DNA of 40,542 nt from a virus: IMG/VR virus record IMGVR_UViG_3300037258_000612, positions 1 to 40,542 of that record; one strand, 5' to 3'. The notes below the pieces were generated by a model. That model was not told where the DNA came from and did not search any database. It saw only the letters and a list, made by a program, of their open reading frames with translations. A program made the position numbers and the translations under genes. Within the stretch, counting starts at the first letter, position 1. The number at the start of each line of letters is the position of its first letter. Of this stretch, positions 18,748-21,737 are shown piece after piece.

Positions 18748-21079
18748 CTATCTGCTCATGATTTGGCTAACAAAGTCATTAGCCATTGTTTGACGGCGAG
18801 CATCCATCTTGTCACGTTCTGCATCTATTGCTTCCCCCGCATCGATACTTTCGATTTGCCCCATCTTAAGCATTGTTTCAACTTCACCAAACTTTTGAAT
18901 AGATTCGATGAGTTTTTCCAATGCCTCCATCTTAGCTTTAGTCGAAAGAGCCTGGTTCTTCTGTACCTCTGAAATCCGCTCTTCGAAGAGACCAACATTG
19001 CTCTCAGCTCTTCCATGTCTTTCTCTGGCCATTGCAACCATGTTTGCGGCTCTGGCTTGCATTTCTTTGAGTTTCGCTTCTTCGAATGCGTGTTGGATCG
19101 TGGTGGCTTCTTGAGCGACGGCGGATTGTTGCTGTTCTGCACCTTGGAGGAGTTGCATGAGTTCTGTTTTTCCATGGAGCGTAGCTTTGGAGGCAATGTA
19201 AGAGGGAGGGATGATTCCGCCCAATTGCTGGTTAAGCTCGAGAAGTTGGGCATACTCGAATTGTTTTTGCGTCGCCGTGAGTAATCCTTCTTCGACGATG
19301 ACTTGGTATTTTGCGAAGACTTTGCTATAGAAGTGCGGTGTCGGTTCTTCCCCAATGATCAATCCTACTTTAGCGGCGTTCCAGTTGTTTAATACTATTT
19401 TCAAGCATAAATCACCGAGAACTTTTAAGGATACATCCCATTGGTCAAAGTACTTTTGGAGTACAGTCAAATTGGCGGCTTGTTTGATGAGAGTTGTGAG
19501 TGTAGATGCTTGCTTATCGTTCTGAGCTGACCAGTTCTCCATGTCGATGCCAGAGGTGGAGAAGATTAACTGATGCAATTGATTGGCAAGTTCCATGTCA
19601 GATGGAGGTACACCCGATGGCATGATCTTCTCAACGTCGGACATGTCATAGCCTTCATTGACCACGATATCCCAGCCTTGACCTGATTTCTTGAGATTGT
19701 CTTCGTTGGCTACAGCACCGACTTTACGCTTCCATCCTGCATTGATGGTGGCTTCTGTGATGTCATGATTTAATATGATGCGACGGTTGAGCAGGAACTG
19801 AGGATCGCGCATGGTTTTTACAAGTGAGCGCACACGAAGATCGTAATAGTTGATGTGAGGTTCATAGTTCCAAAACACAGGGATCATGGGACATTCATCA
19901 AAGCCAAGAGGATTGTCCCCTTGGAACATGAGTTGATCGTTGAGGACTACGGCTAGCTTCCATGTTGGTGTCTCGACCGTTACTTCTTCCATATCTGGAA
20001 TGCCATACAGGATTTGGTCGAGTTGTTCTTGACCACCCGCATAGTCGAAGAACTGATTGCGAGATCGGGAATAGAGACGTTTTTTCTTACGTCGCCATTT
20101 ATACCATACATAGCTCAGGATCATGAGATCGTTACGAGCCATATTGTAATTCTCTGGCAAGAAATAGAATGAGCCATAGCGTTGTGGCGTTCCTGCCATT
20201 GGAGCAATCTGTTGGAGCTTATCGGGGAATCGGTTCTCAGCTTCTTTCTTAGAGATGTATTCCTGACACCAGATGAACTGAGCATCTGACATGCGCTCAG
20301 TGTCTCGGAAGTAAGGATCGACGAGGAAGGAGTTATATTCCCAAGTCTTTAACTTCAATTTACCTTGAGCTGGATCATCACCCATATAATCGAGATAAGG
20401 TTGCAACAGAACCATGCCCGATATTGCAGACAACTCACACGCCCTAGAGAACTCTTCATGCAAATGGTTTTGGTTGAAAGTCGTGGTCATTAAACGGTTG
20501 TATTGATCGGTCGTTTGAGGATCGGCCCCTTCTGTCGGAATGTAGTTGATCGATTTACGATGCTGGCGTTGGTAGCCTGTGACTAAGTTGACTGGCTGTT
20601 GGAGTAGGTTGAAGTAGAAGTTTTGGTATGAAAATGAGGGAGTGAAGTTGAAGTATCGATTAATAAAAGTCTGCGAACCGGCATAAAATAATGTCTTGTC
20701 ACTGTTACTTGATGACCATTTGCATGGCGGGAGGTCTTGTTATTCCCTCCTCCGCAATTTCATGTATAGTTGCGGAACAGACTATCGCATCTCTTTCGAG
20801 TCTCCTCGCTTAGTCGTTCAGGCTGCTTTCGCTTGCCCCTTGTCACCCCATCGGGCTTCCAAGTCAATCAGAGGAGATTTAACATCGACTCATATTTTAA
20901 TCGATGTTGGATTGGTTCCATCTAGCTTGCTCAATCTTAATTTTTTACTTGATAAACCAAACCAATTCAGCCCATGAGCGTTAAGGCTGAAACTTAGAGT
21001 ATAAATTATCGAGCCACTGCCGAACGTTTCCTTGGTTAGGTTCCAAAGCATTGTTCCAGGGGGGGTAATAAAAGCTGAT
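18748..21079 (-). CDS. Portal protein (P22-type), split by a group I intron: exons 20984-21079 and 18748-20715
   Basis: Exon 2 is open well upstream of its first ATG (20490): about 75 codons before it encode portal sequence (INRYFNF, FYFNLLQQPVNLVTGYQRQH, YIPTEGADPQTTDQYNRLM) up to an in-frame stop at about 20740. A 32-codon exon 1 (SFYYPPWNNALEPNQGNVRQ, WLDNLYSKFQP) lies beyond the intron. Spliced length is 687 aa, near that of P22 gp1. The protein forms the dodecameric head vertex through which DNA passes; the middle has the usual clip/stem pattern, and the end is a long charged helix like a P22 barrel. Exon 1 has no ATG, GTG or TTG at its head: AGGAGG (21090-21085) stands 5 nt before an ATC at 21079. 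The exact 3' splice point (after 20716) is inferred from frame and a preceding G. Confidence 0.82.
20716..20983 (-). ncRNA. Self-splicing group I intron in the portal gene
   Basis: 268 nt with no reading frame of its own. P1: exon end TTCAGCCT (20991-20984) pairs with guide GGGCTGAA (20973-20966), giving the obligatory U.G pair at the splice site. P3: TCTCCTC (20877-20871) with GAGGAGA (20807-20801). P7: GACTA (20815-20811) with TAGTC (20784-20780). P8: CTC-GAAA-GAG between them. P6: a GC-GAAA-GC hairpin. P9: CCGCAA with TTGCGG (20775-20752), then a GGAGG/CCTCC hairpin. The order P3-P4-P5-P6-P7-P3-P8-P7 is that of a group I core. Without splicing, a stop codon directly follows exon 1. Confidence 0.9.
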
Positions 21080-21088
21080 AAGTACCTC

Positions 21089-21123
21089 CTATAAAGTAAA
21101 ATTATTACTTACTTACTTTATAG
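21089..21123 (-). promoter_or_regulatory. 11-bp hairpin overlapping the portal ribosome site
   Basis: CTATAAAGTAA (21123-21113) and TTACTTTATAG (21099-21089) are perfect inverted repeats with a 13-nt loop. The stem covers the last codons of the HNH gene and touches the first base of the portal AGGAGG. Ribosomes finishing the HNH gene would open it, which suggests coupling of portal to HNH translation (inference). Confidence 0.6.
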
Positions 21124-21737
21124 CCGTACTGCTCCAAAAATTCAATGTAGTATTTGATTCTGTCTTCTACTCTCTGCCCCGCTGGCTGTGCTTTATTCCA
21201 TAATTCTAGGTTTTCTAAGCGGTTATCGTCTCTCACACCATTCAAATGATGAACAGTCTCACCAGGAAACAATGATCTCTTGAGATGATCTTCCATAACT
21301 AAGACGTGTTGATATTTGTATTTATATTTTTGAGATATTTCATCCTTATAGAAAATTTGGACATATCCTTTAGCATTCTTATATCCATCTTTGCATAGTT
21401 CAGATCTTCGCAAGATAGCATCATGAGGTAATCCAAGTTTATCTCGCAGTTCTTTGCTTCTTTTTTCAACGAACTCTTTGTTCTTTCGCTTATATAATTT
21501 CACATGATTTTCATTGTGATTGTTTTTATACCAACGATATTGGCAATTCGGGCATCGCTTGTATTTGACCTTATAGGCAAAGGTCTTCCCGCAATCGATA
21601 CATATACAAGGAATTTTGCATGTATCGCAGCGTTTCTTTCTAGATCCAGTCAAATCTTTTGAACAGACATCACAGAAGTTAGGCTTAGGTTGGTAGGTAT
21701 GACGATGATATTCTTGGTAGTATAGTTTTTTATCCAT
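21105..21737 (-). CDS. Free-standing HNH homing endonuclease
   Basis: 210 aa. The N-terminal 85 residues hold several CxxC pairs (CDVC, CDTC, CIDC, CPNC), probably zinc-binding DNA-recognition modules. The C-terminal half is an HNH_3-type nuclease: HVLVMEDHLKRSLFPGETV, then HHLNGVRDDNRLENLELW, with catalytic HH and N, followed by PAGQRVEDRI typical of this class. The gene is outside the intron that interrupts the portal gene but ends 26 nt before exon 1. It probably cuts intronless portal alleles or a neighbouring sequence and so spreads itself and the intron. No good Shine-Dalgarno site at the ATG. Confidence 0.85.
   Translation of the reverse strand: MDKKLYYQEYHRHTYQPKPNFCDVCSKDLTGSRKKRCDTCKIPCICIDCGKTFAYKVKYKRCPNCQYRWYKNNHNENHVKLYKRKNKEFVEKRSKELRDKLGLPHDAILRRSELCKDGYKNAKGYVQIFYKDEISQKYKYKYQHVLVMEDHLKRSLFPGETVHHLNGVRDDNRLENLELWNKAQPAGQRVEDRIKYYIEFLEQYGYKVSK

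Follow-up and report, generated by a model that had tools for sequence, protein, structure and literature searches.

Exon layout of the portal gene

The window, a 40,542-base virus record taken as a whole, carries on its minus strand a gene for a P22-type portal protein (P22_portal PF16510, E=6e-48, Pfam), for which a search among cultured phages returned no match. Spliced protein-to-DNA alignment placed two inserts in this gene, one of 48 nt (20936..20983) and one of 205 nt (20695..20899), both on the minus strand like the exons that they separate. Exon 1 comprises 32 codons (20984..21079, delimited by tblastn to 80 relatives and a tally of start codons), exon 2 comprises 12 codons that encode IEQARWNQSNID (20900..20935), and exon 3 runs through the stop codon (18748..20694, from translation); the spliced protein has 692 amino acids. 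In the uninterrupted relatives of the tblastn set, the protein reads ...NLYSKFQP-IEQARWNQSNID-TLFYAGSQTF... with no break, and exon 2, joined there to both of its flanks, is nearly invariant. The identity of exon 1 to its relatives is about 60 to 100%.

These comparisons revise the initial annotation, in which the gene was split by a single ORF-less group I intron of 268 nt (20716-20983). The split portal gene itself is supported by the Pfam match and by the conserved exons flanking the inserts, an ORF-less group I intron does interrupt it, and the 32-codon first exon proposed there is matched in the relatives. However, the single 268-nt intron is ruled out by the conserved 12-codon exon within it; both its borders and its unity were mistaken, and in most tblastn relatives six codons, not 268 nt, lie between exon 1 and what had been taken as the second exon. 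The structural elements that it listed (P1 with U.G, P3, P7, P8 with a GAAA loop, and P9) are all present in the stretch, but its P1 (TTCAGCCT/GGGCTGAA) is that of the 48-nt insert rather than of the core-bearing intron, and its 3' end at 20716 falls 21 nt short of the actual one at 20695. The P1 of one insert was fused with the core of another, absorbing a coding exon, and because the two were joined the core-less 48-nt insert was overlooked. The comparison with intronless portals suggested at that time is what revealed this second insert. The annotation would have been withdrawn on the joint absence of a covariance match and of a homologue for the 32-codon exon; the covariance search indeed gave no match (see below), whereas the exon has homologues.

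The apparent start of the portal frame is an ATC codon (21077-21079) preceded by the ribosome-binding site AGGAGG (21085..21090, minus strand, read from the sequence). Portal starts in 139 distinct relatives were TTG (38), ATT (28), ATG (22), ATC (19), ACG (15), GTG (10), and CTG (2), and a Shine-Dalgarno-like motif precedes all of the ATC, ATT, and ACG starts. That almost half of the portal family uses near-cognate starts suggests that initiation is kept weak deliberately. The portal gene is preceded directly by a freestanding HNH endonuclease gene of 210 amino acids (21105..21737, minus strand; Pfam HNH_3, E=1e-7). An inverted repeat between this gene and the portal ribosome-binding site (CTATAAAGTAA...TTACTTTATAG, 21080-21132), noticed via a chance mir-142 match, is a candidate terminator or control element for portal translation.

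The 205-nt group I intron

The 205-nt insert, delimited by spliced alignment and covariation, starts after the exon-2 end AACATCGAT, which pairs with the IGS GTCGATGTT (20881..20889, minus strand) in a P1 ending with U.G. The 3' end reads ...GACAAG/ACATTA (the slash marking the junction), with an omega-G, and excision would join ID/TLFYAG in frame. The 5' strand of P3 (20871..20877) pairs with 20807-20801, with compensatory changes in 6 of 7 pairs, and the 5' strand region of P7 (GAACGACTA, 20811..20819), assigned by covariation and containing a bulged nucleotide, pairs with TAGTCT at 20784-20779; both strands are given on the minus strand. P7 was 100% paired in 39 sequences, with two compensatory pairs and an invariant G-C pair, and a bulged nucleotide together with an invariant G-C pair in P7 is typical of group I introns. 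Over the whole core (P3, P4, P5, P6, P7, and P8), 97.9% of the cells in the 39-sequence alignment were paired, and compensatory changes were found in 18 of 28 core pairs. The covariation score of the 39 cores was 0.538, against 0.195 for shuffled and at most 0.124 for slid versions.

The covariance search proposed in the initial annotation, with the Rfam model Intron_gpI (RF00028), gave no match to this insert in the window at gathering or at E<=10, and one relative reached only 23.3 bits (E=0.025). An Rfam match is a detection criterion for a group I intron and not a structural one; as there was no match, the core was judged by covariation instead. The P3-P8 core, the U.G pair, the omega-G, and in-frame joining were all found in the insert. 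The core covariation, with the bulge and the invariant G-C pair of P7, identifies the 205-nt insert, by its predicted structure, as a compact, ORF-less group I intron.

Compact introns of this family are common in phages, often with several per contig (L083, L096, L154, L148, and others), and are missed by Rfam at gathering. Core-pattern scans retrieved at least 120 stretches in one scan of viral contigs and at least 98 in another, and 16 contigs were matched in bacteria. Among cultured phages, the core was found in Roseobacter phage CRP-118 and Desulfovibrio phage 7757, and no insert of the short, core-less kind was detected at either of these two cores. The family intron of CRP-118 (L509) is flanked by two CDS that each bear the annotation ribonucleotide reductase, a gene that it probably splits.

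The 48-nt mini, a putative intron, and its second guide

The 48-nt insert, which we term a mini, is missing from the uninterrupted relatives, and its parts follow one another in the order TAACGCTCAT-GGGCTGAA-TTGGTTTGGTT-TATCAAGTAAAAAATTAAG. It opens with an in-frame stop codon (TAA) and closes with G. The portal gene therefore needs the mini to be removed or bypassed. Its IGS (GGGCTGAA, 20966..20973, minus strand) pairs with the end of exon 1 (TTCAGCCT, 20991-20984) in an 8-bp P1 that places a U.G pair at the splice site. A P3-P8 core of its own is absent from the mini, which has no room for one and contains no P3-P7-like sequence, and because this defining test failed the mini was not filed as a group I intron.

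In total, 26 minis are known across at least four genes, ranging from 29 to 94 nt overall and from 29 to 55 nt in 24 of them. All 26 have a U before the insert and a terminal G (U/..G/), borders that at some sites were picked within the one-base freedom of the protein alignment and that at portal residue 7 and at the PG/W site are fixed by a split TGG codon. P1 is 7 bp or longer in 24 of 26 minis (0.34 expected by shuffling), and P10, formed between the first nucleotides of exon 2 and the bases immediately 5' of the mini IGS, is 4 bp or longer in 22 of 26 (0.54 expected by shuffling). The window mini has a P10 of 2 contiguous base pairs, longer only with a bulge. Since the 3' sites of the minis have P10, they favor group I chemistry and oppose translational bypass, and it is very likely that the mini uses group I splice-site chemistry.

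Behind the IGS, each mini has a second complementary stretch of 7 to 12 bp, here called Px, that targets the exon abutting the P1 of its partner, the full intron. In the window, the Px guide TTGGTTTGGTT (20955..20965) is paired at 10 of 11 positions, with one U.U, with the exon-2 target AACCAATCCAA (20907..20917; both minus strand, the target read from 20917 to 20907), whose end is 7 nt short of the full intron's 5' splice site; an alternative register of 8 uninterrupted bp lies 4 nt further from the partner's P1. Of the first 12 pairs, 11 have a best Px helix that ends 7 to 8 nt ahead of the 5' splice site of the partner and so touches the partner's 7-bp P1. The spacing between mini IGS and Px is 0 to 3 nt in 23 of 26 minis, and Px and the P1 of the full intron (P1full) touch on the exon strand. 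Examples of guide and target are TTCCATCGG with CCGATGGAA (L015), TTCCAACGG with CCGTTGGAA (L493), GAGCCAT with ATGGCTC (L050), AAGCCAC with GTGGCTT (L017), GTAAAGCAAT with ATTGTTTTAC (L241), and GTAGAATAAA with TTTGTTCTAC (L048). Less regular cases are L127, with a Px of only 7 bp placed 10 nt from the splice site, and L452, with good pairing only if a bulge is allowed (by eye). In the minimum-energy fold of the window RNA, the mini's P1 (P1mini), the helix that the mini tail forms with exon 2 (part of Px), and P1full are adjacent to one another.

When the sequence upstream of 151 full introns was scanned for P1, P10, and Px together, 21 matches were obtained, compared with 0 in three shuffles, and one new mini was added in a further gene (L454). 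A looser Px scan gave a few matches that are likely false (the homologues L129, L161, and L491, and also L154); these disappeared once P10 was also required.

Within site classes, minis pair better with their own exon than with the homologous exon (swap test, p=4e-7). At portal site 22, where the partner may lie at 31, 35, 40, or 41, own-exon Px scores are 18 to 23 and the mean with another partner's exon is 7.5, and the FYG/ minis of the capsid gene, with partners at EQV/ or QDP/, score 20 to 22.5 against 5.1 when swapped. Likewise, PG/W minis with the partner at DAA/ or SLGP/ (L501 versus L127) have the 5' part in common and differ in the guide and the 3' end. Judged from these pairings, the Px guide at a given mini site follows whichever full intron is the partner.

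The same dependence on a downstream full intron is seen in the distribution of the minis. Among 141 distinct portals, a mini and a full intron occur together in 16 genomes (17 pairs, with two in L017), a full intron alone in 4, and a mini alone in none (Fisher, 1e-17); some of our tables include related genomes and not all counts are independent, whereas the retargeting of the guide at shared sites does not rest on counting genomes. Since four full introns lack a mini, the full intron does not need one. The mini is always upstream of its partner in the portal census, with minis at residues 7, 22, 31, or 35 and full introns at 25, 31, 35, 40, 41, 44, or 50. One and the same site holds either a mini or a full intron at portal 31, portal 35, and SLGP/. 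Outside the portal, minis were found in a major-capsid-type gene (L090, L126, L195, and L478), where none of the 60 listed relatives has an interruption in the junction region, in another coat-like C terminus (L109), and in a gene (L495, L501, L127, and L151) whose annotation in Tunturiibacter phage Tunturi_3 is major head protein.

Of 19 insert-bearing genomes, 10 have a related HNH gene at most 900 nt upstream of the portal; the same holds for only 3 of 103 portals scored as insert-free, all three of which (L060, L217, and L315) carry a hairpin insert of another type. This linkage would fit a model in which a freestanding endonuclease mobilizes the block as a unit by homing, and collaborative homing is possible for the HNH gene beside the portal. 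The other insert was counted in 8 of the 141 portals, the remainder being insert-free except for two doubtful alignments. It measures 47 to 54 nt, sits at portal residue 35-36 (L014, L025, L060, L217, L239, L315, L635, and L659), and forms a near-perfect hairpin with compensatory stem changes and an A-rich tail. It follows directly after a CGG codon, mostly before CGN, and has no group I features; an HNH gene is nearby in several genomes. A bypass cassette similar to T4 gene 60 is a lead for this insert, and those of L239 and L659 are without a matching landing codon.

Proposed splicing by a neighboring core

The reading that we find quite likely from the sequence evidence is that the portal pre-mRNA holds a self-splicing 205-nt group I intron and, upstream of it, a 48-nt satellite that would be spliced by the adjacent core. 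The mini would be a satellite intron reduced to its substrate parts, namely, a P1 with U.G, P10 with the omega-G, and Px, the last of which would tether it beside the partner's P3-P8 core in the role that P2 has in a standard intron. The predicted helix order is P1mini, 1 to 2 nt, Px, P1full, and P3, and because the series P1mini, Px, P1full, P3 resembles P1, P2, P2.1, P3, we propose Px as P2. P1mini would dock in the partner's core, exogenous G would attack, and exon 1 would be joined to exon 2 at the omega-G of the mini; P1full would then take the place of P1mini, and the full intron would excise itself. The mini must go first because the core leaves with the full intron, and Px would also make it splice first. 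The tail past Px is 3 to 8 nt in most minis, so that contact of the omega-G with the G site would require Px to bend or open. This geometry counts against the reading, as do the U.U mismatch and the short contiguous P10 in the window, the short and more distant Px of L127, and the four full introns without a mini. We infer the removal of the mini at the RNA level, the catalysis by the neighbor's core, and the order of splicing. More generally, it is likely that phages harbor a class of nonautonomous, core-less introns derived from group I introns, mostly 30 to 50 nt long, which a neighbor's core would excise and which a programmable guide helix would address; a single core would serve two introns, one after the other in a fixed order, and decay of a full intron into a satellite could follow once a downstream core is able to serve it.

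The alternative that survives best, itself improbable, has the mini spliced in trans by a group I core that comes from excised full copies or another phage intron, with Px only aiding local folding. Engineered group I ribozymes do excise introns in trans (PMC4094466), and P1, P10, and the omega-G would suffice as a substrate. However, every mini shares its gene with a full intron (none of 141 portals has a mini alone), and the retargeting of Px to whichever full intron is downstream points to a local core. We give a smaller chance to a single intron, close to the initial annotation, in which the mini's P1 is an alternative upstream 5' splice site and exon 2 is skipped. Docking of such a P1 in the same core is conceivable, and skipping the 12 codons with both inserts would keep the frame, but uninterrupted relatives have a nearly invariant exon 2 joined directly to its neighbors, and the mini's own 3' site (omega-G and P10 with exon 2) would be useless if exon 2 were skipped. 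Furthermore, minis precede introns in several genes with the intervening exon retained.

Comparably remote is a translational bypass element over which ribosomes hop, of the kind known from T4 gene 60 and the Magnusiomyces byps. The size of most minis (29 to 55 nt), the hairpin on the take-off side, the immediate stop TAA in the window, and the adjoining HNH gene, which recalls the T4 mobA/gene 60 cassette, would all suit this explanation. Nevertheless, matched take-off and landing codons are absent in the window (CCT ... AAG) and in L050 (by eye), on which ground bypass was rejected for the U..G minis, and the U.G pair, the omega-G, P10, and a guide that tracks the downstream group I intron are left unaccounted for. 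Decayed insertions in a dying gene, or artefacts in contigs that are metagenome assembled, are very improbable given the open, conserved exons on both sides, the covariation of the helices, and the recurrence of this architecture across many separate assemblies.

Relation to known splicing and bypass systems

Group I introns are usually taken as self-contained. The full intron resembles those of RF00028 in its P3-P8 core, bulged P7, U.G P1, and omega-G; the mini resembles them in its U.G P1, P10, and omega-G and differs in having no P3-P8. We found no natural core-less group I intron in the open-access literature, and to our knowledge, no natural counterpart of a core-less intron with a neighboring group I partner has been described. 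The group III introns of euglenid plastids are short and derived from group II introns, lack most of the catalytic domains, and probably depend on trans-acting machinery; their chemistry is that of group II, whereas that of the mini would be group I, and we know of no partner-matched guide for them. The T4 gene 60 bypass also involves an insert of about 50 nt in an essential phage gene, next to the gene of the homing endonuclease MobA. Unlike the mini, it has no U.G, omega-G, or P10 and no link to a group I intron, and the mini is without matched take-off and landing codons.

If the proposed reading is true, the minis would offer a group I parallel to the commonly proposed step in the origin of spliceosomal introns, in which catalytic parts are lost and outside machinery is needed, in phages and in a form small enough for in-tube testing, and they would provide natural rules for guided RNA excision. 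They would also show that short, stop-containing inserts in the structural genes of phages can be hidden introns, overlooked by gene callers and by Rfam.

A close likeness is to engineered group I spliceozymes and trans-excision ribozymes, in which a group I core removes a separate intron that lies between two splice sites, recognized via P1 and a second helix (PMC4094466). Since spliceozymes excise introns of 64 to 100 nt in trans (PMC4094466), the chemistry proposed for the mini is feasible. Those ribozymes are designs based on the Tetrahymena intron that work in trans, with the guides located in the ribozyme (PMC4094466). The IGS of the mini, by contrast, lies in the mini itself, whose second guide targets exon sequence adjacent to the partner. 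The architecture and the co-occurrence of mini and full intron fit a pair that would be a natural analogue of the engineered spliceozymes.
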